Below are positions 43,324-63,049 of a DNA stretch of 64,000 bases, one piece after another. How positions within the stretch are numbered: the first letter of the stretch is position 1; every line of letters begins with the position of its first letter. A program made the position numbers and the translations under genes. Source of the stretch: Nitrospira sp. (GTDB lineage Bacteria > Nitrospirota > Nitrospiria > Nitrospirales > Nitrospiraceae); the NCBI GenBank assembly GCA_005116835.1, contig SWDM01000023.1:130870-194869 (forward strand). The letters run 5' to 3'. Below the pieces are notes generated by a model, which ran no database searches, was not told the DNA's origin, and was given only the letters and a program-made list of their open reading frames with translations.

Positions 43324-43968
43324 ATGGATAGACTCCTAGCTGCAGAAATCGAGACCTATGCCGAGACCCATTCCATGCCGGAGTCGGACCTCTGTCGAGC
43401 CTTGAGGGAAGAGACTCAGCGGTGCATGGAATCCCCGCAGATGATCGTCGGGCCGCTCGAAGGGGCCTTTCTGAAAATGATGACACAGTTGGTGCAGGCC
43501 ACCAGGGTGTTGGAGATCGGCATGTTTACCGGCTATAGCGCCCTCTGTTTTGCAGAGGCGTTACCGGCGGAGGGGACCGTGCTTACCTGTGAGATCGATG
43601 AGGAGTCGGCGGCTCTCGCTCGCCAGTATTTCACCCGCACGCCGGTCGGCAAGAAAATCGAAATTCGTATGGGACCGGCGCTCGAGACAATGCGACACCT
43701 CACAGGGCCGTTCGATCTTATCTTCATCGACGCCGACAAGATCAACTATGTAAATTACTACCGGCGCTCGATCGAGTTGCTGTCGCCGCAGGGAGTGATG
43801 CTCATCGATAACGTTCTGTGGGACGGGGAAGTGCTGAAGCAGCCGCCGCCGGACGAGAAAACGGCCGCCATTCAAGAACTGAATCGAGTGGTCGCAACCG
43901 ATCCGCTGGTCACGGCGGTACTCGTCACCATCAGGGACGGGGTGTTGGTGATCAGACGGGCTGCGTAG
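43324..43968 (+). CDS. SAM-dependent O-methyltransferase, CCoAOMT-like
   Basis: The 214-residue product has the class I methyltransferase fold. The SAM site is in RVLEIGMFTGYSALCFAEALP, and acidic EIDEESAALARQYF follows. The metal-site residues are in FDLIFIDADKINYVNYYRRSIELL and GVMLIDNVLWDGEV. This matches the bacterial caffeoyl-CoA O-methyltransferase-like family, whose substrates are mostly unknown. It is the last core-type gene before the immune island. Confidence 0.88.
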   Translation: MDRLLAAEIETYAETHSMPESDLCRALREETQRCMESPQMIVGPLEGAFLKMMTQLVQATRVLEIGMFTGYSALCFAEALPAEGTVLTCEIDEESAALARQYFTRTPVGKKIEIRMGPALETMRHLTGPFDLIFIDADKINYVNYYRRSIELLSPQGVMLIDNVLWDGEVLKQPPPDEKTAAIQELNRVVATDPLVTAVLVTIRDGVLVIRRAA

Positions 43969-44264: not shown

Positions 44265-45707
44265 ATGGCTGAGATCTGCGTTGTCTATCTCTCGGACGAC
44301 GAACCCATCGTTGAACAGCTGGTTGCCTTGCTTCGAAGAGATTGGGATGTTTGGTGGGCCCGAGATATCGCCCATGGAGATTGGGAAGAGGTTGTTCGAA
44401 AAGAAATTCCTAAGTCGCTAGCTCTTGTCCCTGTGCTGTCCCGGCACACTCGAGGTGAGCGCAAGAATATCCTTAAGGATGAAATGCAGCTTGCCAAATC
44501 CCACAACAAGCCGATACTCCCTTTTGTAATTGGACCCGGAGAGATGCCTTTGGGATTTGGAGGATTGCATTACACGAAGGCTCATGATTGGAATGGCAAG
44601 GATACAGACCGAGGTTACCAACAGCTTAAGGCGAAGATAACTAAGACAATAGGAAACGGGCGGAACGCACTACGAGGGACTGAGCGGGCGAAACAGCTTG
44701 TCGTGAGAGGGAAAATCCTTCAGCTCCCTGCTTTTGTTTTTTCGCTCTCCTCCCATGAAACTCAAGTAACCCCGAAGGAAGGCGCTCCCTTGCTGCACTT
44801 CCTTGAGCCTGGGGCGGCGCTTGTCTCTGCCTATGATGCGTGGAAGTACTACTCGCGCGATCGCCTCTTCAACTCGATCATGACCAAAATTCGTGAGTCT
44901 CAGGATGTCTTATTCCTCGATTCTGGCAACTATGAGGCGTACCGGAAGAACGACCGCTATGCACTCAAGAAAAATCCTAAGGGCTGGCACAAAGATGATT
45001 TTCGAGAGACTGCCTTAAAGCTGAAACCTGACCTGGCGTTCTCTTTCGATACGATCAACCCAAAGGGAAAACAAGACGAAATTGTGTCGCAAGTTGTTGC
45101 GACTTTTCAGGCTGACGACCGGGCAATGTCAGAAAGAGATTTTTCGCTATGCCCAATCATCCATCTTCCTAAGGGAACCCGTGCCCAGAATGCGGCCGGT
45201 ATTGTGGCAGGCGTTGCTCGTGAGCTTGATCCTCTGATGCTTGCTATCCCTGAGCGAGAATTGGGTGATGGTCTGTTGGAGCGGGCCAGAACGGTTCGGG
45301 ATATTCGAAGAGCACTTAATAGGCTCGGAAAATATCACCCTCTCCACCTGCTGGGTACAGGCAATCCTCTGTCCATGGTCGCCTTGGCAGCCGCTGGTGC
45401 CGATTCCTTCGATGGACTTGAATGGTGTCGAACCATTGCTGATTATGAACGGGGCTACCTTTTTCACTTTCAGCAGTTCGAGTTTTTCAGTGAGATTCGT
45501 CTCCATCGAATTCAGGACCCGCGCATTCGCAATCTGGTCGAAAATAAAAATGTTTCGTACAGTCTGAAGGCGTTGGGATTCAACATCGATTTCTTTAAAG
45601 ACTGGACGCGAAGTATGCAGAACATGATTCATGGCGGACAGATTGAGCATCTCCTAACGAGTGTTCCATATATCGGACCGCAGATATTCAAGGAACTCTC
45701 AAAATGA
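44265..45707 (+). CDS. TIR domain fused to a tRNA-guanine-transglycosylase-like domain
   Basis: The 480-residue product has an N-terminal TIR domain (about residues 3-130; ICVVYLSDDEP, DVWWARDIAHG, and Glu73 in KDEMQLA at the position of the NADase glutamate). It is followed by a TGT-type barrel (about 150-470). The TGT landmarks are FLDSGNYE (217-224), FSFDTIN (259-265), HLLGTGNPLSMVALAAAGAD (361-380) and SFDGLEW (381-387), which covers the nucleophile region. The zinc cysteines of tRNA-modifying TGTs are missing, as in DNA-type or Cap10-type relatives. It starts a coupled operon with OGG- and QueC-like genes. A TIR fusion to TGT is unusual. Confidence 0.85.
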   Translation: MAEICVVYLSDDEPIVEQLVALLRRDWDVWWARDIAHGDWEEVVRKEIPKSLALVPVLSRHTRGERKNILKDEMQLAKSHNKPILPFVIGPGEMPLGFGGLHYTKAHDWNGKDTDRGYQQLKAKITKTIGNGRNALRGTERAKQLVVRGKILQLPAFVFSLSSHETQVTPKEGAPLLHFLEPGAALVSAYDAWKYYSRDRLFNSIMTKIRESQDVLFLDSGNYEAYRKNDRYALKKNPKGWHKDDFRETALKLKPDLAFSFDTINPKGKQDEIVSQVVATFQADDRAMSERDFSLCPIIHLPKGTRAQNAAGIVAGVARELDPLMLAIPERELGDGLLERARTVRDIRRALNRLGKYHPLHLLGTGNPLSMVALAAAGADSFDGLEWCRTIADYERGYLFHFQQFEFFSEIRLHRIQDPRIRNLVENKNVSYSLKALGFNIDFFKDWTRSMQNMIHGGQIEHLLTSVPYIGPQIFKELSK

Positions 45708-46417
45708 CTTCTTTCTCGTCTGTATTCACAGCTCGGCGCTTTGATAGCACGGTCCGTACACTTTGTCCGCTCATAGAGAGCGAAGTTTCAAGGCATATGA
45801 CTCGATTCATTCGCGAATACGAACTGAGACGGGAGTTGGTCGGCTGCATCCTCGGTAGTCAAGTCCGCTACGAAATGGCGGTTGAGGCAGTTGAGAATCT
45901 AGAATCTGCGGGACTTCTCGATGATGCATATTGGTGTCAGCGGAATGATAACGAATTTGAAGGCGGTGTCTTTATGGTGCTCGCTGGTCGAAGTAACGCT
46001 TCTCGACACAAAGGTAGCTATCGATTCCCTGGTGTTCGAGCCAAGCAGTTAGCTCAAGTCAGGAGTGCTTTGGCCAGGGCTCCTATTCTGAGCAGACTCG
46101 CGGTCAGCAGTTGTCCCTCGTACCTGCGACAACAGCTCATCGAGGATATCTCCGGAATCGGTCCCAAGCAGGCCAGCATGTTCCTTCGCAATATTGGGAA
46201 AAGCTATGACCTCGCTATCCTAGACACTCACGTCCTACAATTCATGTGCATGCAAGGCCTTTTATCAATAGAGGATGCTCGCATTGGCACGATCAAGGAA
46301 TACGAGAAAGCGGAGCGGGTTGTGATTCAGTACGCAGCAAGTATTGGCTATCCAGTGGGGTATTTGGACTGGGCCATCTGGGCTACCATGAAGGCAGCAC
46401 GGGAGCTTGAGCCATGA
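45704..46417 (+). CDS. HhH-GPD DNA glycosylase/lyase, OGG-like
   Basis: The 237-residue product has a helix-hairpin-helix followed by the catalytic aspartate, IEDISGIGPKQASMFLRNIG and LAILDTHVLQFM. Lys155 and Asp174 are 19 residues apart, the same spacing as Lys249 and Asp268 of human OGG1. VRAKQLAQV earlier in the protein is also OGG-like. This group includes the ancillary OGG protein of type IV CBASS (Cap11). Its start overlaps the TIR-TGT stop by ATGA, and its stop overlaps the QueC start in the same way. Confidence 0.87.
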   Translation: MTSFSSVFTARRFDSTVRTLCPLIESEVSRHMTRFIREYELRRELVGCILGSQVRYEMAVEAVENLESAGLLDDAYWCQRNDNEFEGGVFMVLAGRSNASRHKGSYRFPGVRAKQLAQVRSALARAPILSRLAVSSCPSYLRQQLIEDISGIGPKQASMFLRNIGKSYDLAILDTHVLQFMCMQGLLSIEDARIGTIKEYEKAERVVIQYAASIGYPVGYLDWAIWATMKAARELEP

Positions 46418-47004
46418 GCATTGTGACATTAGTCTCAGGCGGTCTGGATTCTACGGTCATGGCCGTGCTAACAAAGGAGGAAGGATTAACTCAATTCCCG
46501 CTATTCATCGACTACGGGCAACTGGGCCGTGACAAGGAACTTCAAGCTTGCCGGGCAAACTTCAAACGGCATGGCCTGCCTGAGCCAGTGATCGCTCCGC
46601 TGAGCGGTTACGGGAGCCTCCTTTCCTCGGGGCTCACCGATCAGAACAAGCACATTCTGATAGATGCGTTCCTCCCTTGTCGCAACCTTATGTTCCTCAC
46701 CGTGGGTGCGGCCTATGCGTTTCAATGTGGCGCCTCTGCCGTAGGGATAGGGCTACTCGATGAAGCCTTTAGTCTGTTTCCTGACCAGACCAAGGGTTTT
46801 CTCTCTGATGCCGAAGCGCTGCTATCGAGAGCGCTGGGCAAGTCCATCAAGGTGATCACTCCTCTGATCACATTTTCAAAAGCAGAAGTCTTGAAAATTG
46901 CTAAGGCCAAGGGAATAACTGGAACGTATTCATGTCACGCCGGAACGGAGACCCCCTGTGGTAAATGTGTGGCGTGCCGCGAATACATCGGATTGGAGGT
47001 GTAG
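46414..47004 (+). CDS. QueC-like 7-deazaguanine enzyme (Cap9 type)
   Basis: QueC converts 7-carboxy-7-deazaguanine to preQ0 with ATP and ammonia. This 196-residue relative has the PP-loop LVSGGLDSTVMAVL (SGGLDS at 8-13). It also has FLPCRNLMFLTVGAAYA and all four zinc cysteines in SCHAGTETPCGKCVACRE (174, 182, 185, 188). It is somewhat shorter than housekeeping QueC. Its place between OGG-like and poly-Gly TIR genes, with no queD, queE or folE nearby, points to the ancillary Cap9 group of type IV CBASS and away from tRNA queuosine synthesis. Confidence 0.88.
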   Translation: MSIVTLVSGGLDSTVMAVLTKEEGLTQFPLFIDYGQLGRDKELQACRANFKRHGLPEPVIAPLSGYGSLLSSGLTDQNKHILIDAFLPCRNLMFLTVGAAYAFQCGASAVGIGLLDEAFSLFPDQTKGFLSDAEALLSRALGKSIKVITPLITFSKAEVLKIAKAKGITGTYSCHAGTETPCGKCVACREYIGLEV

Positions 47005-47006
47005 CC

Positions 47007-47495
47007 ATGGGAGGTGGCGGAGGTGGCTCAAGCAGCATCGGAAATATTCAGTCGCTGGTGGACAAGGCTAAGCAGGAACTGAGGAAGAGCGAACAGCAGG
47101 GAGAGAAGAGGAATGTCTTTATCAGCTTCGCCTATGAGGACATCAATGAGGTGAATCTACTCCGCGGTCAGGCAAAGAATGAGAACTCCCCCATTGAGTT
47201 CAACGATTGGTCGGTTTCAGAACCGATCGACAGCGAGCGAGCCCCTTATATCAAACAAAAAATAGCGGAGCGAATCCAGCAGTCGTCGCTAACCGTGGTG
47301 TTTCTTTCCAATGCAACGGCGAAGAGTAAATGGGTGGCATGGGAGATTGAGGAAAGTCTCAAAATGGGCAAACAGGTTCTAGGCGTTTACCCCAAAGATA
47401 ACAAGCCAGCTTCTTTTCCAGAGGCCATTAATGCGAATAAGATTAAATGTGTGACATGGCCAGATCTGGCAAGCACCATCGCGAAGCTTAAGTAA
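47007..47495 (+). CDS. ThsB-like TIR protein with N-terminal hexaglycine
   Basis: The 162-residue product begins Met followed by six glycines and three serines. It then has a short helix (NIQSLVDKAKQELRKSEQQ) and a TIR-like DUF1863 domain (about residues 35-160). That domain has RNVFISFAYEDINEVNLL, FNDWSVSEPI and KSKWVAWEIEESL, where Glu113 aligns with the catalytic glutamate of ThsB-type TIR proteins. The ATG at 47007 is 7 bases after GGAGG, which fixes the glycine-rich N-terminus. It is 2 bases after the QueC-like stop. Met before Gly is normally removed, exposing glycine. Confidence 0.88.
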   Translation: MGGGGGGSSSIGNIQSLVDKAKQELRKSEQQGEKRNVFISFAYEDINEVNLLRGQAKNENSPIEFNDWSVSEPIDSERAPYIKQKIAERIQQSSLTVVFLSNATAKSKWVAWEIEESLKMGKQVLGVYPKDNKPASFPEAINANKIKCVTWPDLASTIAKLK

Positions 47496-47506
47496 GTGAG
47501 TTGCTG

Positions 47507-49351
47507 ATGGTATCCCGGTTGAGCACTACGCTGTCGCGAGCCGTCGATCGTGTTTTTGGATACGATTTTTTCCTTTCTTACTCCCACAAAGATGGAAAGA
47601 ATTATCCGAGGCTTCTCAAAACCAGGCTTGAGCAAGTCGGATTCAAGGTGTTTCTCGACCAGACTGAATACGTCCCGGGAGACGATCTACGCCGCGAGAC
47701 AAGACGACAGGTTAAGAAAAGCCAGAAGCTTGTCGTGATCGCCAGGACAGACGCGCTAAAATCTGTCTGGGTGAAACGCGAGGTGGAGATCATCTTGGCC
47801 AGTGGGCGCACTCCGATTCTTATCGATCTCAACAACAGTGTGGAGCGCGCATCACCGGATGCGGAACTGGCGATGCTTGCGCGCGAGCATCATTGGTTGC
47901 GCCTTATGGAGACGAGCACTGATCCCGACGGAGTTCCAACGGACTATGCAGTATCGGAGCTAATCCGTTCGTTCGGAGTAATGCGTCAGGACGTCAAGCG
48001 CCAGCAGATCTTGGGCGTAACAGCGGCTGGATTCGCCCTTATTGCCATCTGGGCAGGGTATCTTGCATGGCTGTCGAATGAACGGCGACAGGAAGCCGAC
48101 ATGAGGCTCGCCACCACGCTCGAGACCGCCACGCGGTTCGTCAACCAGACCGTGCAAATGAGCGACAAATACGGTGTTCCTCGAGAATTTGTCCTCCAAC
48201 TCCTCAAGGAGCCTGAGCAGGTTTTTCTGCAACTTGCGAAATCAGGGACTGACACGCCCGAGGTTCGACAGCGGCGGGCTCAGACCCTGCTTGATTTCTC
48301 CGACAACTACGAGGTGCTTGGCGACTCAGATCAGCGACTGGCACGAGCGCGCGAAGCGAAAGCGATTCTTGCGGAGCTCGTCAGCAAGCATCCAGACAAA
48401 GTAGACTGGCAGCTTCGTCTCGCGACCGCGTCCAGTAAAATCGGGACTGCACTGCTGTTTCGCGGTGACAGGTCTGGTGCCGATGCAGAGTACGAGGAGG
48501 CGCTGCGGCTGCGCAAAATGTTGGCGGAAGCATATCCAGAGGATCGCAAGGTCCAGCGTGACTACTCGGTGGCGCTGAACCGTAAGGGGGAGATACTAAT
48601 TGGGCTTGGCCGCTATGAGGACGCCCGAGGCTATATCCGTCGGGCGCGTGATCTGCGCAGAAGCCTGTCAGGCGTGGATCCGGAAAACCGCGAACTGAAG
48701 CGCGATATTATCGTGTGCCAGATATGGCTCGGTGACAGCTTCAAGGCTGAGCAGAGATTTGCAGATGCTCGTACGGAGTATCTGGTGGCACTCGAAATCG
48801 CAGAGAGACTTACGCGAGAGGACGAGACGAGTAAGAATGCGGCACGCGATTTCACCGTGAGCCTGAACAAGATCGGCGAGACGTATCTTGGTGAGAAAGA
48901 CGCTGCGAGCGCCAAATTTTACTATGAGCGCGCACTTCCAGTCCGTAAACGGCTGGCTACTGACGAAAGCAATCGCGCCGCGCAGCGGGACCTTTTCGTG
49001 AGCTACATTCAGCTCGGCCACATCGCGTTCTCTGGGAAGCTGACCGGCAAGGCACGGAGCTATTTCGGCAACGCACTTGAGCTTGCCGAAAGGCTGTTCC
49101 AGAAAGATCCGAATTATGCACATTGGCAGGCCGATGCAGCCGAGGCTAGAGGTTGGTATGGAATGGTCGCAGAGGCTGGAGGCGAGACGATGATCCGTCA
49201 GGCTATTGCACAGCTCGATGCCATGCGTAGAGAGGGCAGACTCGTTGCGGATCGTGAGGTGCTGATTACACAATTCAAAGGCATCGTGGCAGAACGAACA
49301 GCCGATGCTGGACAAGACAAGCCGCCAGCCTCAATACCGCCGAACCGCTGA
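47507..49351 (+). CDS. Membrane TIR-TPR protein
   Basis: The 614-residue product has an N-terminal TIR domain (about 18-155; YDFFLSYSHKDGKNYPR, Glu92 in SVWVKREVEI). One membrane segment (167-189, ILGVTAAGFALIAIWAGYLAWL) and a long TPR array (about 245-590) follow. The TPRs have repeated patterns such as NRKGEILIGLGRYEDARGYIRRA and NKIGETYLGEKDAASAKFYYERA. The TIR is cytoplasmic if the TPRs lie outside; topology is not certain. It follows the poly-Gly TIR gene by 11 bases and is probably the last gene of that operon. Base composition is richer in G+C than in the four genes before it. Confidence 0.85.
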   Translation: MVSRLSTTLSRAVDRVFGYDFFLSYSHKDGKNYPRLLKTRLEQVGFKVFLDQTEYVPGDDLRRETRRQVKKSQKLVVIARTDALKSVWVKREVEIILASGRTPILIDLNNSVERASPDAELAMLAREHHWLRLMETSTDPDGVPTDYAVSELIRSFGVMRQDVKRQQILGVTAAGFALIAIWAGYLAWLSNERRQEADMRLATTLETATRFVNQTVQMSDKYGVPREFVLQLLKEPEQVFLQLAKSGTDTPEVRQRRAQTLLDFSDNYEVLGDSDQRLARAREAKAILAELVSKHPDKVDWQLRLATASSKIGTALLFRGDRSGADAEYEEALRLRKMLAEAYPEDRKVQRDYSVALNRKGEILIGLGRYEDARGYIRRARDLRRSLSGVDPENRELKRDIIVCQIWLGDSFKAEQRFADARTEYLVALEIAERLTREDETSKNAARDFTVSLNKIGETYLGEKDAASAKFYYERALPVRKRLATDESNRAAQRDLFVSYIQLGHIAFSGKLTGKARSYFGNALELAERLFQKDPNYAHWQADAAEARGWYGMVAEAGGETMIRQAIAQLDAMRREGRLVADREVLITQFKGIVAERTADAGQDKPPASIPPNR

Positions 49352-49438
49352 CTGTCGGTGGAAATCAGGTTGGAAGCGCTGTTTAGTGGTCTTGAAAGCT
49401 GTGGCATCGATACGCTTCAGAAAAACTAGGAAGCTTGC

Positions 49439-49564
49439 ATGATACCCCATGTTTTTGTCGCGATGCCATTCGGCTTGAAGAAAGTCAGACAAGACAACGA
49501 GATTGATTTCAATCGCGTCTATACCGAACTGATCAAACCCGTGCCGGAGTGGCACGAAGGATAG
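49439..49564 (+). pseudogene. Truncated N-terminal fragment of a deoxyribosyltransferase-like effector gene
   Basis: This 41-residue frame starts MIPHVFVAMPFGLKKVR and continues EIDFNRVYTELIKPVPEW. It clearly matches the first 35 residues of the intact protein encoded at 49975 (LCFVLMPFGKK, VDFDSIYELLIKPAV). It then stops, and the rest of the gene is missing. A MITE lies 11 bases downstream, so insertion or associated deletion probably removed the remainder. Confidence 0.75.
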
Positions 49565-49575
49565 CATAGGGTTAG

Positions 49576-49674
49576 GGAAGGTTTGATTAATTCAAAGTTC
49601 CAGGCAGTGACATCGTCGAATTCCCTGTGTTTTGAAGGTCGGCTGAGCGAAATCTTGAATTATTCAGACCTTCC
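49576..49674. mobile_element. 99 bp MITE with terminal inverted repeats and TTAG duplication
   Basis: The left end GGAAGGTTTGATTAATTCAA and the reverse complement of the right end, GGAAGGTCTGAATAATTCAA, match at 17 of 20 positions. Directly flanking 4-base repeats TTAG lie at 49572-49575 and 49675-49678, the expected target-site duplication. There is no coding capacity, so it needs a transposase supplied elsewhere. The parent IS was not identified. Confidence 0.8.
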
Positions 49675-49678
49675 TTAG

Positions 49679-49974
49679 ATTGATATGGTGGCGGTACTGC
49701 GCAGCACTTGCTGAATGCAGTCCACCTTGCCCGGGCGATGATATATGGCATCTGTTGCCCTGATAGATCCATGCAACCATTACATCTACTAATCAGTGCT
49801 GCACCGAATTGACGAGAAATTGTTAGAAGGGTACACTCGCGTCGCGAGAGTCTTTGGATGCCTTAGAACCTGGGACCGAAAAGAAGTTGAGGAGGTAGTT
49901 GCACCGGCTGAGATTTTGCGTGCCCCATCCATTGGAAGACGAGCCTGTTGTTAATCCGCTCAAGTAGCTCGACC
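49679..49974. other. Non-coding stretch after the MITE
   Basis: About 300 bp hold no convincing reading frame, promoter or RNA. A short hairpin, CTCGCGTCGCGAG, is near 49838. Scattered similarity to coding composition suggests decayed gene sequence, but nothing can be named. Confidence 0.5.
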
Positions 49975-51318
49975 ATGCTGCCACTATGCTTCGTGCTCAT
50001 GCCCTTCGGGAAAAAGCCAGCTGGCGATGGCCGGTTGGTGGATTTTGATTCTATTTATGAGTTGCTCATCAAGCCTGCCGTGGTGGCCGCGGGCCTTGAG
50101 CCGTTGCGTGCCGACGAGGAGATGACCGGTGGCGTGATCCACAAGCCCATGTTCGAACGGTTGATTCTCTGTGAATACGCGGTTGCAGACCTGACGACAG
50201 CCAACGCCAATGTTTTCTACGAGCTGGGATTGCGGCATGCCGTCCGACCAGCTAGCACGGTGCTGCTGTTTGCTCAGGGAATCGGCCAATTGCCATTTGA
50301 CGTTGCGCCATTACGCGCCATCCCGTACCAACTCGGCTCTGACGGCAAACCAGCGATGAACGATACGGACCGTGACAGGCTCACTACTAGGCTTCATGAA
50401 GCCCGCGAGGTCAAAACAGACAGTCCCGTTTTCCAACTCGTGGAGGGTTTTCCCGACATCCAGCGTCTCAAGACTGATGTGTTTCGCGAGCGTGTCGAGT
50501 ATTCCAGCACACTTCGACAGAAACTGGCGCAAGCTCGCAAGCAAGGCGTTGAGGCGGTTCGGGCTCTAGAGCGAGAGATAGGGCCCATACATGATGTTGA
50601 GGCAGGCGTGGTGGTCGATCTGTTCCTTTCCTACCGTGCCGTGAAGGGTTGGGGCGACATGATTGCGCTGGGCCAGGAGATGTCGGCGCCGTTGGCGGCG
50701 ACGGTTCTCGTGCAGGAACAGTTGGGGTTGGCTTTGAACCGGGCCAATCGTGGCGAAGAAGCGGAACGAATACTGCTGGCTCTGATTGAGAGTCGCGGGC
50801 CGAGCAGCGAGACGTTCGGCATCCTTGGCCGGGTGTACAAGGATCGGTGGGAAGCAGCTCTGAAGGCCGGCGAGAAGGTCCTCGCACGCGGGCTGCTTGA
50901 AAAAGCTATCGGGGCCTACCTCAAGGGGTTCGAAGCCGACTGGCGCGACGCCTATCCCGGAATCAATGCCGTGACGCTCATGGAACTGAAAGAGCCGCCC
51001 GATTCCAGGCGCGACCAACTCATCCCGGTCGTCTCATACGCCGTGGAACGTCGCATGGCTTCCGGCAAGCCAGATTATTGGGACTATGCCACCCTACTGG
51101 AGCTGGCGGTGCTCGCCAAGGATCAGAACAAGGCTGAGTTGGTGCTTGCCAACGCACTTGCTGCAGTGCGCGAATCCTGGGAGCCGGAGACCACCGCTCG
51201 GAATCTCAGGCTGATTCGTGAGACTCGCGAGCGTCGCAAGGAGCCGTTCCAGTGGCTCAAAGAAATTGAAGAGGAGTTGGAGTGTTACCCCAAAACGGTA
51301 ATGCGTGATGGCGAATAA
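49975..51318 (+). CDS. Deoxyribosyltransferase-like plus TRAFs-binding (DUF4071) protein
   Basis: The 447-residue product starts with LCFVLMPFGKK. ERLILCEYAVADLTTANANVFYELGLRHAV follows, the pattern of the nucleoside 2-deoxyribosyltransferase/TIR-like fold (about residues 1-140). The remainder is helical and TPR-like (GRVYKDRWEAALKAGEKVLARGLLEKAIGAYLKGFEADWRDAYPGINAVTLM), as in the TRAFs-binding domain family DUF4071. Such proteins occur in bacterial conflict gene clusters. The start at 49975 is preferred over a TTG 27 bases earlier. The activity is not known; the N-terminal fold suggests nucleotide or NAD processing. Confidence 0.8.
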   Translation: MLPLCFVLMPFGKKPAGDGRLVDFDSIYELLIKPAVVAAGLEPLRADEEMTGGVIHKPMFERLILCEYAVADLTTANANVFYELGLRHAVRPASTVLLFAQGIGQLPFDVAPLRAIPYQLGSDGKPAMNDTDRDRLTTRLHEAREVKTDSPVFQLVEGFPDIQRLKTDVFRERVEYSSTLRQKLAQARKQGVEAVRALEREIGPIHDVEAGVVVDLFLSYRAVKGWGDMIALGQEMSAPLAATVLVQEQLGLALNRANRGEEAERILLALIESRGPSSETFGILGRVYKDRWEAALKAGEKVLARGLLEKAIGAYLKGFEADWRDAYPGINAVTLMELKEPPDSRRDQLIPVVSYAVERRMASGKPDYWDYATLLELAVLAKDQNKAELVLANALAAVRESWEPETTARNLRLIRETRERRKEPFQWLKEIEEELECYPKTVMRDGE

Positions 51319-51396
51319 TTCGCATGCATTATTTTGGGATATATGCGTGAGAAGGAGAGAGCTTGTTGTCGCTATGGATAGGAGGTTCAGGTCACG

Positions 51397-52092
51397 ATGA
51401 AGGTTTTCCTAGGATTTTCGTTCCGTGACGAAGACAGGGAGATTGTGGGGTTGGTGGATCAGCTGATAGCCAGTCATCTTGTTGAATTGAAAACAGGAGA
51501 ACGTTTGGGAGGGGATCAATTGACTCCCGCTGTCCAACGGCGCATCGAGGACAGTGATGCACTCGTAGGTGTCCTTACCAGGCGAGACAAAAGGCAAGAT
51601 GGGAAGTGGACAACGCATCAGTGGGTGCTCGATGAGATCGGGTGGGCTAGAGCAAAGAACCGGAAGGTAATCGCTTTAGTGGAGCAGGGCGTCGACATAG
51701 GAGGAATGTTCCTATCCCATGAACACATTTCCTTGGACAAAGGCAATCCCATTCAAGGCTTGATGGCACTTTCTGACACCATCGGTCTATGGAGACGGGA
51801 GCTAGGTCGTACTGTGAAAGTCCAAATCTTGCCGGTTGCGATTGCGCAAAGAGTGGGGGATGGCGGTAATGGTGTACGGTGCCGCCACCGCCTGTGGTTA
51901 AGGGGGGCGTCTTCATCGTGGTTGGATTTGACTCCTGTGCCTGAAGCTGGAGGCACGTTTGTTTTCGTGAATGGCGTACAAGATGAGCACCTTATCCAGC
52001 TGCAAGTTCAACAGGATAGCAAGATGTGGCAGTCCGTGGCCACCTCACAATGGATTCAGGTGACGATGAAGTCCGGAGGTGTAGGCCTATGA
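51397..52092 (+). CDS. TIR-domain protein with C-terminal beta-rich domain
   Basis: The 231-residue product has a TIR-like domain (about residues 1-145). It starts MKVFLGFSFRDEDREIVGLV, and Glu80 in THQWVLDEIGWA stands in the catalytic glutamate position. The C-terminal 85 residues (RVGDGGNGVRCRHRLWLRG through WIQVTMKSGG) are strand-rich and of unknown family. The stop overlaps the pYEATS-TIR start by ATGA, so the two are translated together. It starts the second immune gene run. Confidence 0.78.
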   Translation: MKVFLGFSFRDEDREIVGLVDQLIASHLVELKTGERLGGDQLTPAVQRRIEDSDALVGVLTRRDKRQDGKWTTHQWVLDEIGWARAKNRKVIALVEQGVDIGGMFLSHEHISLDKGNPIQGLMALSDTIGLWRRELGRTVKVQILPVAIAQRVGDGGNGVRCRHRLWLRGASSSWLDLTPVPEAGGTFVFVNGVQDEHLIQLQVQQDSKMWQSVATSQWIQVTMKSGGVGL

Positions 52093-52814
52093 CAATACAG
52101 ATTAAACAACAAGCGGTCCCTAAAGGTAAGGATTGGTGGGAATGGTCGGTGTGGCTCGAGGGGGCCAAAAAAGAACTCGAGGGCATTGATCATGTTGTAT
52201 ACACACTCCATCCAACCTTTCCCAATCCTGTTGTGCCGGTTACCAACCGGGCGACAGGATTTCGATTGGATTCCTCTGGGTGGGGAGAATTCACTATTTA
52301 CCTTCAAATCAAGAATAAAGATGGCTCGACGAGCAAGCGACGGCACTACCTGAAGCTTATTGATTCAGGTATCAATATGGCCAGATCGAATCAAAAGAGC
52401 GGAAAGCTCTCTTCGGCGAAGGAACCGTCACGTCGCACGGTTTTCGTTTCCGGCGGCACAAGAGATTTAGATGCCGTTCACGCAGTTCGCGAGGCGTTAT
52501 CGGGACAGGACGTCGAGGTCGTGGGACCGCAGGATGTCAAGGCTGGACAGCAATGGCAAGGAACCGTAAGCGACATGATTGCACGAGCTGACTCTGCTGT
52601 TTTCGTGATCTCTGGCCGACCGAATCTTTGGATGAACGAGGAAATTAAAGCTGCCATCAAAGTGGGTGTGCGGCATATTCTTCCCCTCGTAATAGGCGCG
52701 AACGTGGAGTTGCCTGATATTTTGCGAGACATCAATGCTGTCCGCGTTGAGAATTCGTCGGATGTGGCAAACATTACAGAGACGATCCTTAAACAATCGC
52801 TGGGGAGGAAATGA
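52089..52814 (+). CDS. pYEATS-TIR protein
   Basis: The 241-residue product has an N-terminal prokaryotic YEATS domain (about 4-92; DWWEWSVWLEG, IDHVVYTLHPTFPNP, GWGEFTIYLQIKNKDG). A linker and a TIR domain (about 116-235) follow, starting RRTVFVSGGTRDLDAVHAV and with Glu184 or Glu185 in WMNEEIKAAI. YEATS folds in eukaryotes read acyl-lysine; the ligand of pYEATS domains is not established. The start at 52089 overlaps the upstream stop. This is probably a sensor-effector pair in one chain. Confidence 0.85.
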   Translation: MTIQIKQQAVPKGKDWWEWSVWLEGAKKELEGIDHVVYTLHPTFPNPVVPVTNRATGFRLDSSGWGEFTIYLQIKNKDGSTSKRRHYLKLIDSGINMARSNQKSGKLSSAKEPSRRTVFVSGGTRDLDAVHAVREALSGQDVEVVGPQDVKAGQQWQGTVSDMIARADSAVFVISGRPNLWMNEEIKAAIKVGVRHILPLVIGANVELPDILRDINAVRVENSSDVANITETILKQSLGRK

Positions 52815-52857
52815 TGCTTCGTCACTATTGCTAGGGGCTAAGCATGCATGGAGGAAA

Positions 52858-53766
52858 ATGATGGCTATCGCATCGAGATCGGCTCTCAGAAATGGAAGCG
52901 TGTGTTTGGGACTGTTTGGTATGTTCTTGGTGATGGGCTGTGGGCTCACGATTCAGCAAAAGGGGGCAGTGAATCAATTCGCCACTGCTACGCGTGACCT
53001 ATCCGTCTCAGCCCAGGCTGAGTTTCAGCGGAGCCGTCAAGATGTCGTCGAGATGAATCGCTTTCGGCTCGAGCTTGGTGATCCGATGGCCGACGTGAAC
53101 AAACTGGATTCGTTGCTAACCCTCGATCGAACCCGAGATCGTATCATGGCTCTTCAAGCTCTCGAAGACTATGGGGGATTGTTGAACAAACTCGTTGGTA
53201 TTGTTCCTGAGGGCGAACTTCTTGAAGCCAGCAACACTTTTGTCGGAAGCCTTAAGCAAGTCAAGGGGGTGCAGTTGACCGACCAGGAAGCGGGAGGGAT
53301 CGGAAAGGCCGTGGCCGCAGTCGGTGGGCTCTATGTTGAATACAAAAGAGCTGCGGCGGTTCGCCATGTGGTGGAAACGACACATGCACCGGTTCTTGCC
53401 GTGATCGATCTCGTGAAGAAAGACTTCGATCCGAACTCGGATTTCTGGAGTGCAGGTTACCGGAAAACGGCAGTAGACTTAAGTGGTCATGCGGAATCCC
53501 TTGATCTCCTATATCCTCCAAAGGATCTCCTGTCTAAGCAGAGCACCCAGCGGGCCAAAACCCTTGCTACCGAAAACATGAACAGATTTAGCGCTATCTC
53601 CGTACAGATCATGACTCTTGTCAGCACACTTGCTGAGGCACAAAAAAATCTTCGTCTTGTGCTGAATCCATCCGAACTCAATGTTCAAAGTATCGACCAT
53701 CTTGCAACACAAGTTCGAGATTTCAAAACCATCTACGGCCTTCTACGAAACGAAGCGCCACGCTGA
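52858..53766 (+). CDS. Lipoprotein of unknown function in immune gene run
   Basis: The 302-residue product has a lipoprotein signal (SVCLGLFGMFLVMGCGLT). A long helical body follows, with NQFATATRDLSVSAQAEFQRSRQDVVEMNRF and a C-terminal segment rich in charged helices. I recognise no family. GGAGG precedes tandem ATG codons at 52858 and 52861, and the frame further upstream is not used. It lies between the pYEATS-TIR and small helical genes on the same strand. An envelope-anchored sensor is one possible reading. Confidence 0.7.
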   Translation: MMAIASRSALRNGSVCLGLFGMFLVMGCGLTIQQKGAVNQFATATRDLSVSAQAEFQRSRQDVVEMNRFRLELGDPMADVNKLDSLLTLDRTRDRIMALQALEDYGGLLNKLVGIVPEGELLEASNTFVGSLKQVKGVQLTDQEAGGIGKAVAAVGGLYVEYKRAAAVRHVVETTHAPVLAVIDLVKKDFDPNSDFWSAGYRKTAVDLSGHAESLDLLYPPKDLLSKQSTQRAKTLATENMNRFSAISVQIMTLVSTLAEAQKNLRLVLNPSELNVQSIDHLATQVRDFKTIYGLLRNEAPR

Positions 53767-53780
53767 GCAGGAGGATGACT

Positions 53781-54164
53781 ATGCCCACAAGCCGCAAGAC
53801 ACGGAAGCGCCAAACTGCCACTCGTAAACGGAGTCTGAGCCGAGGACTTGGTGAACAGCGAGGGCTCGGACAACTTTTGCTCGACACTGTCGAAAATATC
53901 ATTGAGTTGATGAGGCACACTCAAGATCCAGACCGTCTCAAGGAACTGAACAGCAAAAGAATCGCGCTCTCGAAGGAAGCTGGCCGACTCATTGATGCCA
54001 CCCTTGATGCATCGAGTGCCGAATATCGGTCTGCTACCTTCGCACTGGAGGAAGCCGCAGGTACGATTCGTGGAGCCATTAAGGGACTTGAGGCAGTCAA
54101 GGATGCCATCCTGAAAGCGGCTAAGGCGCTGGAACTGATTGTCAAGGTGGTATCAATCGCGTAA
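53781..54164 (+). CDS. Small helical hypothetical protein
   Basis: The 127-residue product has a very basic N-terminus (SRKTRKRQTATRKRSLSRG). Amphipathic helices follow (LGQLLLDTVENIIELMRHTQ, AAGTIRGAIKGLEAVKDAILKAAKALELIVKVV); the last is hydrophobic enough to interact with a membrane. There is no family match that I know. The start at 53781 is 6 bases after AGGAGG. It lies 14 bp after the lipoprotein gene and 30 bp before the metacaspase gene, so it may be a partner or substrate of that protease. Confidence 0.65.
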   Translation: MPTSRKTRKRQTATRKRSLSRGLGEQRGLGQLLLDTVENIIELMRHTQDPDRLKELNSKRIALSKEAGRLIDATLDASSAEYRSATFALEEAAGTIRGAIKGLEAVKDAILKAAKALELIVKVVSIA

Positions 54165-54194
54165 CGCTCACTCTCTCGGTGAAAGGATCGTTAT

Positions 54195-55031
54195 ATGGCA
54201 AAGCGAGCTGTGCTCATTGGTATCAATCGGTATCAGATCCCCGGATCTGATCTGAGGGGTTGTGTCAATGACGTCAAGAATCTCCAGCAAGCGCTCACCA
54301 CGTACTATGGATTTTCAAACCAGGACATTGCGTCCCTCACCGACCTGAAGGCGACGAAGAAGGCCATGCAGTCGGCGATTAAGAAGCTGGTCACCGGTGG
54401 AAAGAAGGGCGATGTCCTGCTTCTACACTATTCAGGCCATGGGGCGAACGTGCCCGACGACAATGGTGATGAAGCGGATCACCGAGACGAGATATTGTGC
54501 CCAACCGACCTCGATTGGAATGACCCATTGCGTGACGACTGGCTCCGTAAGACATTCAATAAACTTCGATCGGGGGTGAGCCTCACGGTGATCATGGACT
54601 GCTGCCACTCAGGAACCAACACTCGCGTGTTCACTCCACCGGATGCTCCCATAAAAGAACGGTTCCTCCCCTGTCCGTTAGATTTGATGGCCAGTGAGTC
54701 CGGCAGGAAACTGCGTGGAACGCTTCGCGGTCAACTGGGAAAAGCTCCGCGAGGGCGCAAAAGAAAGAGCGATATCGTCCACGCCGATATTCAAGAGCTG
54801 CTGATCACCGGCTGCCGTGATACTCAGACCTCCGCCGATGCGCAAATCGGTGGCACCTTTAATGGTGCCTTGACCTATTACCTGGTCGAGTCGATTAGAG
54901 AGACCAAAGGCAATCTAACCTACCGAGAGCTGCATCAACGAACCGTCGCGAAACTCAAGAGCAATGAGTACGATCAAGTTCCGCAACTGGAAGGGCGACG
55001 TACGTCCTTTGATCGTCCATTTCTCAGTTAG
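54195..55031 (+). CDS. Metacaspase-like peptidase, family C14
   Basis: The 278-residue product is a caspase-fold protease. It starts AKRAVLIGINRYQIPGSDLRGCVNDV. The catalytic histidine is in LLHYSGHGANV (His82) and the catalytic cysteine in VIMDCCHSGTNT (Cys137). The C-terminal portion has ITGCRDTQTSADAQIGGTFNGALTYYL, typical of type I metacaspases. These enzymes usually cleave after Arg or Lys. It lies in a row of TIR and CHAT genes, which suggests a role in triggered proteolysis. Confidence 0.92.
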   Translation: MAKRAVLIGINRYQIPGSDLRGCVNDVKNLQQALTTYYGFSNQDIASLTDLKATKKAMQSAIKKLVTGGKKGDVLLLHYSGHGANVPDDNGDEADHRDEILCPTDLDWNDPLRDDWLRKTFNKLRSGVSLTVIMDCCHSGTNTRVFTPPDAPIKERFLPCPLDLMASESGRKLRGTLRGQLGKAPRGRKRKSDIVHADIQELLITGCRDTQTSADAQIGGTFNGALTYYLVESIRETKGNLTYRELHQRTVAKLKSNEYDQVPQLEGRRTSFDRPFLS

Positions 55032-55101
55032 CAGAGCTGTGCGATGACGCTATGACATTCCTGATGTTCGTCACCCATCCTTACTGCCTAAAGGAGTTCC
55101 C

Positions 55102-58100
55102 ATGAGTATTCAGCTGCGTATTGCCGGTCGGCCGACGTCGCCAGCGGAAGCAAGTGCAGCCGTTCGAGGAGATTCTCTCTCCGGACGAAGAGAGCAGCCC
55201 GATACGCGTCTGCTGGATGCTGTGGACGTGCTGGGCGCGTTCGAGATGTACCCGAAAGATCGTGCGGCATCGGAGAAGCCAACGATGCTTGAAGCCGAAG
55301 ACGATGACTTGATTGAATTCGTGCTGGAAGATGGCATCTCTGTGTGGACGTCGGTGGCTGCTCATCGAGAACGGCAACGCCGATTGAAGCCCGGTGTGCA
55401 GACGGCGAAGGAGCTGGATATCGACTTGGTTATCTCCACGCCCGCATCGAGCAGGGGACTGGTGAGCGATATCGTGACCGGCGCGGTACGAATTCTCCGG
55501 CTGAAACGAGACGAGGTGTGGGAACAAGCAAAAGATCCCACGCAGTGGCCGGCCTGGATAAAGCCGTACGGGGTGGCGACATTCGAGAAATTGGGGGCGT
55601 GGCTGACGGCCAAGTTGATCATCTGGTTTATCGAGAGAAAGATTCGTCCTGAAGAAGGGCTCTATCGGTGGGTCAAGCCATCGGCTGAAGACGGCCCTTC
55701 GCTCATTGCTCCAGGGAGTATTCCCTCCGATGCACATGTCCTTCTCTTTATTCATGGAACGGCCTCCAACACCATGGGGAGTTTCGGCGCGTTGCATACC
55801 GACGAGGCCTCGTCTGAATGGGACACACTCACGCGAACATTCAAAGATCATATTTACGCGTTTGACCATCGCACCTTGAGCCAGAGTCCAATCGACAATG
55901 CCGTGATGCTGGCGAACGCGCTTCCGGACGGCGCGCAAATTTCTCTGGTGTCACATTCACGGGGAGGGCAGGTGGCCGACCTGTTATGCCTACGAGAGTT
56001 GTCCTCCGAGCAGGTCAATCGGTTTCATCGAGAAGGCGACAAATCTCGCCAAGCAGATGAACATGACCGTCGACAGCTGGCTGAGTTGGCAAAGATCCTC
56101 CGTAAAAAGAAGTTTCGGATCGTGCGGCTCATTCGGGTAGCCTGTCCGGCTCAAGGGACATTGCTGGCCTCGGAGAATTTGGATCGTTTTCTCTCTGTGT
56201 TGACCAGCCTCATCGGGCTGATTCCTGTCGTGGGGCAGTCCCTGATTTACCAGGTTGCAAAACGCATCACGCTCGAAGTGGCTAAAAGCCGGTGGGATCC
56301 TTCGGTGATTCCAGGGGCCGAATCGATGGTTCCGCAATCGCCGCTCGTCGCATTACTCAATGCTCCGGACGTGCAGGGAGGGGGAGCCCTTGGCGTGATC
56401 GCTGGGGACATTGAGGACGTGAGCTGGTTCAAACGGTTGGGCACATTCATCACCGACAGGTTTATATATGACAATCAAGACAACGATTTGGTCGTCAATA
56501 CCAATTCAATGTTTCAGGGAGTGCCTCGAAGCGCAGTCTCTCGATACATTTTCGATCAGGGATCCGATGTCTCCCATTTTCGATACTTCCGAAATTCGCG
56601 CACGCGTCATCTGTTGGTGCAGTCGATTACGAACGCAGGGGAGCAATGGCCTGCGGAATTTCGCTTGCTCGATGAAGCCAAGGTTGCTCCGGTTCCCATG
56701 CTGCGTTCCATTCAAACGAGATCGGGGGCGAGCCAGCCTGTTGTCTTCGTACTCCCTGGAATCATGGGATCGGAACTACAAGCCAACGGCGACGATGTCT
56801 GGCTGAGCTATTTGAGCCTCTTCCTCGGCCATATCGACAAGATTGCGGTGGATGCACCTAATGTGGAGGTCAATGGCCTCGTCAGCACGTACTATCGTGA
56901 CCTCTGCAATTATCTGGGCGATACACATGAAGTCATTCCCTTCGGCTACGATTGGCGTCATTCAATTACACGCGCCGCTTCTAAGCTGGCGGACGAAGTG
57001 AAGAAGGTGGTGGCTCGGACAGGTGAACCAATTCGGTTCATCGCCCACAGCATGGGTGGTCTCGTGGTACGGCGGCTCATCAAAGACTTTCCAGATTTGT
57101 GGGAGACACTGTGCAAACGGGAGGGCGCTCGATTCGTCATGCTGGGGACGCCCAACCGCGGGTCCTATGATATGGTGGAGTCACTGGCTGGCATGGCGAA
57201 AACTGTCAAACAGCTGGCCTTGCTCGATGTTACCCATTCGATGAGTGAAATCGTCGCGATTGTGTCTGCCTACCAAGGGGCGCTGGAGCTCTTGCCTCAA
57301 GATGAAGGGGAATATTTTACCTCTCAAAAATGGACGGAACTTCATCCGCTGACGGAATCCAAAGTTCAGATCAAGCCCCAAATACTGCAAGATGCCAAGG
57401 CCGCGCTTGCCGATCTTCCTGAACGGATTCCCCATGCGGAGTGCGTGCGTTACGTGGCGGGGTGGGCGCCCAAGACCGTGTGTGGAGTGAAGGTCGAAAA
57501 CCAACGCCTCTCCTTTCAGGCAACGACGGCGGGCGATGGCCGTGTGACCTATAAAGCGGGTCTGCTTCCGGACATTCCTGTGTGGTATGTCGATGCCGAG
57601 CATGGCGACTTGGCGGACCACAAGCCGGCGTTTCCAGCCTATCGCGACTTGCTTGAGCGAGGCGTGACCAATCAGCTTTCTACCACACCCTTGAGCGCCG
57701 ACCGAGGCGGCGAATCGATCTTCGACTACGAGCATGAACCGGTGTTGTACCCGACAGCATCGGATTTTGAAGCAGGCCTGCTCGGGAAGCGGCGAAAAGC
57801 ACTGAAAGTACGCACTTCCGAGAAGTTGCAGGTGTCGGTGCTGCACGGCGATCTGATTCACACCAACCATCCTATTCTGCTCGGTCATTACCAGGGCGAC
57901 ACGATTTTCGGGTCTGAACAGCTCGTGGACCGTTTTTTGGTCGGAAATTCTCTATCCCAACGCTACAATTTGGGCCGTTATCCAGGGCGAACGGAGACGG
58001 TTGCCGTTGTGCTGACCCAGCCAAACGACGTTCAAACAGCCTTTCGTATCCGACACGGGGCGATCGTGATTGGCCTCGGCAAATGGGGTGAATTGACACC

Positions 58101-60741
58101 CTCGGTGCTCACCCAAGCCGTGCATCATGGCGTGATGGAGTATTGTGTGCAATTTGCCCAGTGTTGTGGTTCGACGGAAGCATCGACGATCTCGACCGGT
58201 CTCACCATCAACAGTTTACTAATCGGATCCAATACGTCGGCGAACATTGCCGTCGAGGATTCGGTGAATGCGATTGTACGAGGAGTAATTCTTGCCAATC
58301 GCGCCCTGATGGAACAGAACCATGCGTTTCCGAGAATTACACATGTTCAGTTCATTGAGCTGTATCTGGACGTGGCGATTGATGCGGCAAAAACGGTGCA
58401 TCGCCTGGCCAAGCGCATTGAGCGTGACCTTCAGGCTGAGATCGACGTGGCGACGTGGTTGAAGAAGGGGATTGGGGGGCGGACGAGGTATGTCCCATCG
58501 AGTACGCGGGGCTATTGGCGTCGCTGGACGGTCTCTGCGGTTCATGATGCCCCGGCTCCTGCCCCCTGCATCCTGTCTCCGGTGTTGAAAGATCGGCTCC
58601 GCATAACCCTTCAAGACGAGAAGGTCAATGATCCCAGAGTTCTGAATGCTCTCCTAGATTTGGCTTTCAAAGACGATGGCCCCGTGCGTCGCCATCCGCG
58701 CAAGCTTCGTTTTCTTGCTCTGTCGGATCGCGCCCGCGCTGAAGTGATTGTGGAGGAAACTCAACCGGAATTGATCGCTCAGCTCATTCAGCGTTCGATC
58801 ACCTCCACAGCGTTCAGACGGGATATCGCCAAAACGCTCTTTGAACTGTTGATCCCATTGGATCTTAAGGATAGCCTCCTCAACCAAGACCGTGTGGTAT
58901 TGGTCCTTGACGACGTGACAGCAAACTATCCTTGGGAACTAATGATCGACGTTGACCAGCCGCTGTGCATTCGGATCGGTATGGTTCGGCAGCTGGAAAC
59001 AGCCGACTACGAAGAGCGTATCCGAGATACGACCGCAACCAACGTCTATGTGGTTGGAAACCCCCTTACTCCTTCCAATTATCCGACGTTGCCCGGTGCT
59101 CAGAAAGAAGCAGAACTTGTCGCGTCATTACTGAAGCCTCACTATGCCGTCAACCATTCAAGCCAACGGCTTGGCGCCCTCGAGGTGCTCAACCAGCTCT
59201 TTGCCCAGCCCTATCGGATCATCCACATCGCCGGGCATGGCTCTTACAACGAAGCGGAGACCGAATTGTCTGGGGCGAAGGCTGGTGTGGTGCTCGACAA
59301 CGGACTCTTTCTCACCGCGGCGGAAATCGCCAAGCTGGACCCGATTCCGGAATTGGTGTTCTTGAATTGTTGCTATCTCGGGCAAATTGGCGGCACGGCT
59401 TACAATAAGATGGCCGCCAGCATCTCGCGCGAATTGATTAGAAAAGGCGTGCGTGCAGTCGTGGCAGCCGGATGGCCGGTTCGGGACGATGCGGCGCTCT
59501 GTTTCGCGCAAGTATTCTACAAGAAGCTGCTCGACTCTCAGCCGTTCGGTCATGCGCTAAAGGAGGCGAGGCAACAGACCTGGGCCCTCTTCCCGGAGTC
59601 CAACACCTGGGGGGCCTACCAAGCCTATGGGGATCCGGATTTCCGATTGAGGCAGAATCATGACGTGCAAGTAGACAACGAGGACGTGACCGTTGCGGCG
59701 GAGGAGGTGCTCATTGCCTTGGATGATCTCGAACATCAGAGCGGTGAACCGGATGTGGCAACACTCCAGAATAAACTCGACGACCTAAAAGGGAGATGCG
59801 CAGTCGATTGGCTGAAACAGGGAAATGTTCAAGAGCAGTTAGGGAAAGTCTATGGCGAGCATGGTCTCTTTCAGGAGGCGGTCGCGCACTATAAGAAGGC
59901 CGCAGAGAGTGAAGATATCGAGAATCCGGCGACGTGTCGGGGGATCGAACAGTGGATCAATCTTGAGGCGCGGCTTGGCAAGAAGATCAACGACAAGGCG
60001 AGAATTAAAAGAGCTATCAAACGGGGCCTGGATTTACTCAAGATTGCAGAAACATCCGAGCGTTTGAGTATCATGGGCAGCGCGTACAAGAGACTGGCAG
60101 AGCTTGATGAAGAGCCGAGTGAGATCACGACGAATCTGAAAGAGGCTGCTGCGTACTATCAAAAAGCAGCGGAGAGACAAGAGCAAGAGCCATTGGCAGA
60201 TCCGTATCCGATTATGAATTGGCTGACGATAGAGGCACTTCTTGAAACATCCAAGGTGCCGTACGAATCGTGGTTGTCGAAAGCCGAGATTCTGGCACGG
60301 CAGCGTTTCCAGGCGACGCGCAAGGCGTGGGATTTGTTTGCCGTAGCGGATATCGAAGTTCTCCGAGCCATTCAGAATAAAAAAGAGTCGATAAAGAGCG
60401 CTGGGCTTGTGGGTAAGTATCGAAAGGTCTTTACCGAGTCGGCTGCGACCCAACGAGAACAAGATTCAGCTCGCAGTCAATTAGAGTTCATAATCACGAT
60501 GCGGCAGAAATTGTCTCGCTCTCGTCGCCAAAAGAGGGCGGTCGATTCGATCGGTGACGCACTGACCGATATTCGACATCATCTTGAGAAGTCGAAGCCC
60601 CAGGCGAAACCCTCGCCGATCCAACCAAAAGTAACCAGCAAGCCCTCCCCCACAAGCAAGGCACCGGCGAAACAGCCTTTGCAAAAGAGTTCCGTGCAAG
60701 AGAAAAAAACGCGTCGTCCGAAGCGTCACAGGAAGGGATAG
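55102..60741 (+). CDS. Giant double alpha/beta-hydrolase, CHAT protease and TPR protein
   Basis: The 1879-residue product combines several domains. The first hydrolase (about 210-520) has HVLLFIHGTASN and the nucleophile elbow SHSRGG (Ser286). The second, LCAT/lipase-like (about 545-760), has PGIMGSEL (552-559) and AHSMGG (Ser650). A middle region of unknown family (about 800-1250) follows. The CHAT protease domain (about 1270-1530) has HIAGHG (His1379) and FLNCCYLG (Cys1423/Cys1424). TPR-like helices (about 1560-1780) and a basic, Pro/Lys-rich tail end the protein. Coupling a caspase-like protease to lipases in one chain suggests self-activation or membrane damage. It follows the metacaspase by 70 bp. 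Confidence 0.88.
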   Translation: MSIQLRIAGRPTSPAEASAAVRGDSLSGRREQPDTRLLDAVDVLGAFEMYPKDRAASEKPTMLEAEDDDLIEFVLEDGISVWTSVAAHRERQRRLKPGVQTAKELDIDLVISTPASSRGLVSDIVTGAVRILRLKRDEVWEQAKDPTQWPAWIKPYGVATFEKLGAWLTAKLIIWFIERKIRPEEGLYRWVKPSAEDGPSLIAPGSIPSDAHVLLFIHGTASNTMGSFGALHTDEASSEWDTLTRTFKDHIYAFDHRTLSQSPIDNAVMLANALPDGAQISLVSHSRGGQVADLLCLRELSSEQVNRFHREGDKSRQADEHDRRQLAELAKILRKKKFRIVRLIRVACPAQGTLLASENLDRFLSVLTSLIGLIPVVGQSLIYQVAKRITLEVAKSRWDPSVIPGAESMVPQSPLVALLNAPDVQGGGALGVIAGDIEDVSWFKRLGTFITDRFIYDNQDNDLVVNTNSMFQGVPRSAVSRYIFDQGSDVSHFRYFRNSRTRHLLVQSITNAGEQWPAEFRLLDEAKVAPVPMLRSIQTRSGASQPVVFVLPGIMGSELQANGDDVWLSYLSLFLGHIDKIAVDAPNVEVNGLVSTYYRDLCNYLGDTHEVIPFGYDWRHSITRAASKLADEVKKVVARTGEPIRFIAHSMGGLVVRRLIKDFPDLWETLCKREGARFVMLGTPNRGSYDMVESLAGMAKTVKQLALLDVTHSMSEIVAIVSAYQGALELLPQDEGEYFTSQKWTELHPLTESKVQIKPQILQDAKAALADLPERIPHAECVRYVAGWAPKTVCGVKVENQRLSFQATTAGDGRVTYKAGLLPDIPVWYVDAEHGDLADHKPAFPAYRDLLERGVTNQLSTTPLSADRGGESIFDYEHEPVLYPTASDFEAGLLGKRRKALKVRTSEKLQVSVLHGDLIHTNHPILLGHYQGDTIFGSEQLVDRFLVGNSLSQRYNLGRYPGRTETVAVVLTQPNDVQTAFRIRHGAIVIGLGKWGELTPSVLTQAVHHGVMEYCVQFAQCCGSTEASTISTGLTINSLLIGSNTSANIAVEDSVNAIVRGVILANRALMEQNHAFPRITHVQFIELYLDVAIDAAKTVHRLAKRIERDLQAEIDVATWLKKGIGGRTRYVPSSTRGYWRRWTVSAVHDAPAPAPCILSPVLKDRLRITLQDEKVNDPRVLNALLDLAFKDDGPVRRHPRKLRFLALSDRARAEVIVEETQPELIAQLIQRSITSTAFRRDIAKTLFELLIPLDLKDSLLNQDRVVLVLDDVTANYPWELMIDVDQPLCIRIGMVRQLETADYEERIRDTTATNVYVVGNPLTPSNYPTLPGAQKEAELVASLLKPHYAVNHSSQRLGALEVLNQLFAQPYRIIHIAGHGSYNEAETELSGAKAGVVLDNGLFLTAAEIAKLDPIPELVFLNCCYLGQIGGTAYNKMAASISRELIRKGVRAVVAAGWPVRDDAALCFAQVFYKKLLDSQPFGHALKEARQQTWALFPESNTWGAYQAYGDPDFRLRQNHDVQVDNEDVTVAAEEVLIALDDLEHQSGEPDVATLQNKLDDLKGRCAVDWLKQGNVQEQLGKVYGEHGLFQEAVAHYKKAAESEDIENPATCRGIEQWINLEARLGKKINDKARIKRAIKRGLDLLKIAETSERLSIMGSAYKRLAELDEEPSEITTNLKEAAAYYQKAAERQEQEPLADPYPIMNWLTIEALLETSKVPYESWLSKAEILARQRFQATRKAWDLFAVADIEVLRAIQNKKESIKSAGLVGKYRKVFTESAATQREQDSARSQLEFIITMRQKLSRSRRQKRAVDSIGDALTDIRHHLEKSKPQAKPSPIQPKVTSKPSPTSKAPAKQPLQKSSVQEKKTRRPKRHRKG

Positions 60742-60845
60742 GCGCGAAGAGAAGGCTTGGTAAATGGGATCTATAACAGAGAATGCGAAGATCTCAGATG
60801 GCGGCCTTCAAGTTCAGAGGTGTCTGATTCTAAGATGGAGTACGA

Positions 60846-62959: not shown

Positions 62960-63049
62960 GGCCTTTGGTCTCACATGGTGGCTGCTACTCTGCAGTTACT
63001 GTTACAACGGCTTTTTGTAAGCTATCGACGGGATGGGCTAATCCCAGCC

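Follow-up and report, generated by a model that had tools for sequence, protein, structure and literature searches.

What does a protein do that joins a TIR domain to the fold of a tRNA-guanine transglycosylase (TGT)? The question is raised by an open reading frame in the window, the whole stretch of 64,000 nucleotides of Nitrospira DNA that was analysed. In this study, we propose that its gene opens a four-gene anti-phage operon whose mode of action probably resembles that of type IV CBASS, a ThsB-like TIR enzyme standing in for the CD-NTase; this proposal is built on gene content, conserved residues and predicted folds.

The TIR-TGT protein and its operon

The reading frame is followed by genes for an Ogg-type HhH glycosylase, a Cap9-like QueC and a ThsB-like TIR that starts with MGGGGGGSSS (hereafter MGG-TIR), the other three operon proteins of the window starting with MA, MT and MS. 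The features are:

44265-45707, plus strand: TIR-TGT, 480 aa, first gene of the four-gene operon
44265..44660, plus strand: TIR domain of TIR-TGT, residues ~3-130, with E73 at the TIR catalytic-Glu position
44679..45707, plus strand: Cap10/TGT-like barrel of TIR-TGT, residues 139-480, zinc site absent, D219, D262 and D383 kept
45704..46417, plus strand: Ogg-type HhH N-glycosylase/DNA lyase, 237 aa, overlapping the TIR-TGT stop by 4 nt (Pfam Ogg-HhH 1.6e-23)
46414..47004, plus strand: QueC/Cap9-like enzyme, 196 aa, overlapping the Ogg gene by 4 nt (Pfam QueC 2e-35, PADLOC QueC 4e-25)
46995..46999, plus strand: Shine-Dalgarno sequence GGAGG preceding the MGGGGGGSSS start, read from the sequence
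47007..47495, plus strand: ThsB-like TIR enzyme (MGG-TIR), 162 aa, proposed deazaguanylation acceptor (ThsB_TIR 4e-27, on a longer ORF)
47507..49351, plus strand: TIR-TPR protein (TIR_2 4e-16 plus TPRs), 11 nt after the MGG-TIR stop, with an alternative TTG start at 47501; a possible fifth operon gene
49948..51318, plus strand: TPR-S / MAP3K_TRAF_bd protein, a possible accessory or sensor, of a TPR-S family found near 24 of 36 TIR-TGT loci

The preliminary description of this DNA had read the first protein as a TIR domain fused to a TGT fold that lacks the zinc site, and this is confirmed. Residues 4-121 match Pfam TIR_2 above its gathering score (E 1e-11) and the PADLOC 'TGT' model covers residues 147-431 (E 1e-28), with Pfam PF01702 falling just below its cut-off (24.6 bits vs 26.3). 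When the PDB is searched with the single protein sequence, Cap10 (9ntn) is the sole clear relative, and a profile of the TGT family again places Cap10 on top (E 1e-20), ahead of archaeosine TGT (1e-6). An AlphaFold model based on 55 aligned sequences (pLDDT 93.5) leads in Foldseek to the same entry, the top matches being both chains of the 'Cap10-CdnD complex containing NDG modification', where NDG stands for N-terminal deazaguanine. Residues 139-480 superpose on Cap10 with a VIA-align Z of 28.3 and on tRNA TGTs with a Z of about 24-25, and because of this superposition the alternative that this part is no TIM barrel, or has lost both base pocket and nucleophile, falls away. Indeed, D219 (DSGNYE), D262 (FD) and D383 (SFDGLEW) align with the aspartates of DSGG, FDE and the nucleophile FD of tRNA TGTs, and these pocket and nucleophile positions are invariant in 79 of 79 TGT-family sequences. 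The zinc motif CxCxxC after FDGLEWC occurs in none of 78 relatives, whereas the tRNA TGT of the same genome keeps it (CGCQVC). The catalytic glutamate expected of a TIR NADase is present in both operon TIRs, as E73 in 36 of the 37 aligned TIR-TGT rows having a residue there and as E113 in all 74 aligned MGG-TIRs.

Distribution and two architectures

Run against 84,980 species genomes, the TGT profile yielded 80 loci, to which the viral contigs added one, giving a set of 81, in 74 of which TGT, Ogg, QueC and TIR are all present and in the same order. They are spread over Nitrospirota, Pseudomonadota, Bacillota, Acidobacteriota, Planctomycetota, Thermodesulfobacteriota, Gemmatimonadota, Bacteroidota and others, and are carried by Rhizobium plasmids as well. 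Within the window's own family the operon is patchy (3 of 175 genomes), and a tblastn search of phage records returned no relative. One copy (L101) lies on an IMG/VR contig filed as viral, and two others (L026, L029) come from short contigs that binning had assigned to Micrarchaeota and Paceibacterota, where binning errors are possible. The Ogg gene is not supported as part of an essential core: L067 and L091 consist of TGT, QueC and MGG-TIR only.

The neighbours of the operon include type I restriction, TPR-S and ThsB-like genes, the TPR-S gene lying directly downstream of the operon in L023 and L026. An O-methyltransferase gene is found upstream in the window (43324-43968) and in two Nitrospira-family relatives (L002, L022), which suggests the same genomic site. 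Beyond the two operon TIRs, the window holds a dense TIR island (44265-63000) with the following members:

47507-49351: the TIR-TPR protein listed above
51397-52092: TIR-like protein
52026-52814: pYEATS-TIR protein
60846-62000: TIR-like protein plus C-terminal extension, identified by eye
62375-62974, minus strand: ThsB-like protein, identified by eye

The same region contains, at 54195-60741, a caspase-family protease (54195-55031) and then a protein of 1879 aa with hydrolase/LCAT, CHAT and TPR-S domains.

About half of the loci encode TIR-TGT, the rest a TGT without TIR. A coding error at the fusion can be set aside, as the fused form recurs in about half of the loci and in several phyla. 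Near 35 of the 45 TIR-less TGTs lies a gene for a SLATT protein with two transmembrane segments (2TM), mostly directly upstream and often with an overlap of 1-4 nt. We infer that the fused TIR occupies the place of SLATT, i.e., that it is the effector; SLATT genes are also found near 12 of the 36 fused loci, in L041 directly upstream. On the TGT tree the label fused or unfused needs three changes, and since two of these (L027, L084) are contig-truncated rows, there has been essentially one switch between the two forms. That tree was built by a quick method and has long branches. It groups the family into a clade of its own, separate from the two Cap10 sequences, with a support of 100; the tRNA TGT outgroup sits on a very long branch, and its placement is not to be trusted. 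In 21 of the 36 fused loci (e.g., L033, L034, L060, L101) the gene for a PfkB-like kinase stands ahead of TIR-TGT, and many proteobacterial fused forms have this arrangement. In L096 (6339-8972) SLATT and TGT share one ORF next to a split Ogg gene, where an assembly frameshift is possible.

These observations bear on the earlier idea that sensor and effector form one chain. It has become doubtful, given that a separate second TIR is conserved and that about half of the TGTs lack a TIR and mostly have SLATT upstream; a free-standing TIR-TGT acting as one-chain sensor and effector was given a lower rank after the operon and the TGTs without TIR had been found.

A putative writer, acceptor and reader of an N-terminal tag

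In type IV CBASS, the CD-NTase starts with MGGS; its N-terminal glycine is coupled by Cap9 to 7-carboxy-7-deazaguanine, and Cap10 binds the N-terminus so tagged (PMC13279940; abstract of PMC11996544). A hallmark of NDG substrates is an unstructured tail with an N-terminal glycine (PMC13279940), and the acceptor in type IV CBASS is glycine 2 in a disordered tail.

The last TIR of the operon has such a tail. Of the 76 loci in which its start is readable, 74 have MGG, almost always preceded by a ribosome-binding site; the exceptions are one MAG (L038) and one truncated gene (L045). The loci hold 20 further ThsB-like TIR ORFs, and not one of them shares this start. AlphaFold predicts a disordered N-terminal tail (pLDDT <50, residues 3-12) in front of an ordered TIR core, and the fold of this core matches ThsB and the Bacillus cereus TIR 8fz9. 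We also considered a tail motif shared with CdnD, whose sequence in 9ntn reads GGSFGSGFDPRDI, and rejected it: beyond the glycines the likeness is modest, 38 and 14 of 2000 shuffles reaching the score.

The putative writer is the operon QueC. The Cap9-type motifs [YF]xQx5E, RN, P[LF]x4K and Cx7CxxCxxC (the zinc site), as defined in PMC13329287, are present in 76 of 76 operon QueCs. The QueC substrate motif YxDC occurs in none of these 76; where canonical QueC has YPDC, nearly all have FPDQ or FxDQ (FxDQ in 72 of 76; residues 122-125 of the window's protein, 46414-47004), so that the base or the reaction could differ from those of Cap9. Taken as a whole, the operon QueC stands at the same distance from Cap9 as from canonical QueC. 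The defence branches named in a recent QueC survey are QatC and Cap9 (PMC13329287).

As the genome encodes its own canonical QueC, tRNA TGT and QueD-type genes, 7-deazaguanine precursors are likely made and probably available. Removal of the methionine from MGG-TIR (47007-47495) would expose Gly2 on a flexible, glycine-rich tail, to which the Cap9-like QueC, after activating 7-carboxy-7-deazaguanine with ATP, would join the base to form NDG. The TGT barrel of TIR-TGT would then bind the tagged tail in the former queuine pocket, and this docking might unite the fused and the tagged TIR, or free the tagged TIR, and so switch on NAD+ cleavage or signalling. Where the TGT has no TIR, as in the sister architecture, the 2TM SLATT protein encoded just upstream would be the likely effector. 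None of these steps gives a task to the Ogg protein, which nearly all loci encode.

The preliminary description had allowed for protein or DNA as the ligand of the TGT part. Reading of a 7-deazaguanine-bearing protein, tied to TIR activity, now appears well supported, if indirectly, by the Cap10-NDG structure and by the QueC and MGG partners in 74 of 81 loci; we do not favour the reading of DNA. The latter would belong to an operon acting on nucleic acids, in which Ogg and TGT work either on tRNA or on phage DNA modified with 7-deazaguanine, with QueC as the source of the base and the TIRs as the killers of the cell. Such a role would agree with the catalytic residues of Ogg, conserved in every aligned relative (K155 in 75 of 76 and D174 in 74 of 76 loci, the remainder being gaps), with the invariant nucleophile and pocket aspartates of the TGT and with a QueC no closer overall to Cap9 than to canonical QueC. 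Yet it leaves the MGG start of the partner TIRs unexplained, the zinc site of tRNA TGTs is lost, the best structural match is Cap10, a binder of protein tails, and two loci do without an Ogg gene; we therefore consider it unlikely.

A guard arrangement uses the same parts with the opposite sign: the tag would keep MGG-TIR off and the TGT would hold the tagged TIR silent until a phage that interferes with QueC or with 7-deazaguanine metabolism sets it free. Such an inhibitory complex would be built from the same genes as an activating one. In the related systems, however, defence requires NDG in type IV CBASS (according to the abstract of PMC11996544) and Gly2 of QatB in Qat (PMC13279940), and a guard seems quite improbable to us. 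We give an equally small chance to a TGT part that senses the free 7-deazaguanine made by the operon QueC and gates its fused TIR directly, as the kept base pocket and the union of TIR and TGT in about half of the systems would allow, but a queuosine-making cell would contain the free base all the time, the conserved MGG-TIR would be unneeded and many systems have a TGT without TIR. It is very improbable that the tag is supplied with 7-deazaguanine bases which the Ogg protein releases from modified phage DNA.

If the proposed tagging of MGG-TIR is true, an N-terminal deazaguanine tag would be a general switch on unrelated immune enzymes (CD-NTase, probably QatB, and TIR) and not a peculiarity of CBASS. 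TIR signalling would be linked to queuosine metabolism, Cap10-like proteins would gain a plain role as tag readers, and the function of the tag would become testable in a simple four-gene operon, with the TGT-TIR fusion versus the TGT with SLATT offering clean predictions about the effector.

Relation to known immune systems

On balance, we lean towards an undescribed class of nucleobase-protein-conjugation immunity, in which an NDG tag and a TGT-fold reader (fused to a second TIR) would control a TIR enzyme and not a cyclic-nucleotide synthase. In the open-access literature searched, there was no description of a QueC-TGT-Ogg-TIR operon, with the Science 2025 NDG paper represented by its preprint abstract, so that an earlier mention is possible, and one eLife 2020 paper by Burroughs and Aravind mentions neither QueC nor TGT. 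No NCBIfam model reaches its cut-off on the operon proteins.

With tRNA-guanine transglycosylases the operon TGT shares the barrel fold and D219, D262 and D383 at the canonical positions, but it has no zinc site, stays below the Pfam cut-off and carries FDGLEW instead of FDCV. The qatABCD system resembles the operon in pairing a QueC-family enzyme with a partner that starts with glycine (QatB, MGTS). QatC is, however, a protein of about 400 aa with other motifs, and the partner in the operon is a TIR; among the nine window proteins scanned with PADLOC, there was no match to QatA, QatB or QatD, and QatC matched at E 0.0036 only.

With Thoeris, in which a ThsB TIR works with a separate effector, the operon has in common an enzyme of the ThsB_TIR family that keeps its catalytic glutamate, as well as a neighbourhood rich in TIR and SLATT genes. 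To our knowledge, QueC, TGT and Ogg genes and an MGG tail are not part of Thoeris. No ThsA-like match was found by PADLOC among the same nine window proteins, the wider neighbours being partly listed.

The closest parallel is type IV CBASS, for which a genuine plasmid locus (L104) served as reference: it encodes QueC, TGT, a CD-NTase starting with MGGSGGGFFSNSDI and a 2TM gene that matches SLATT_4 weakly. The operon differs in that its MGG protein is a ThsB-like TIR, its core has an Ogg glycosylase, with none annotated in L104, and its TGT often carries a second TIR in the same chain. A search of the 81 loci at E 1e-5 revealed no CdnD-like ORF, nor did the genome of the window yield a SMODS CD-NTase, and we therefore do not class the operon as type IV CBASS proper. 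What both have in common are a Cap9-like QueC, a zinc-less Cap10-like TGT, a glycine-rich MGG N-terminus on the signalling enzyme and a 2TM gene of SLATT type.
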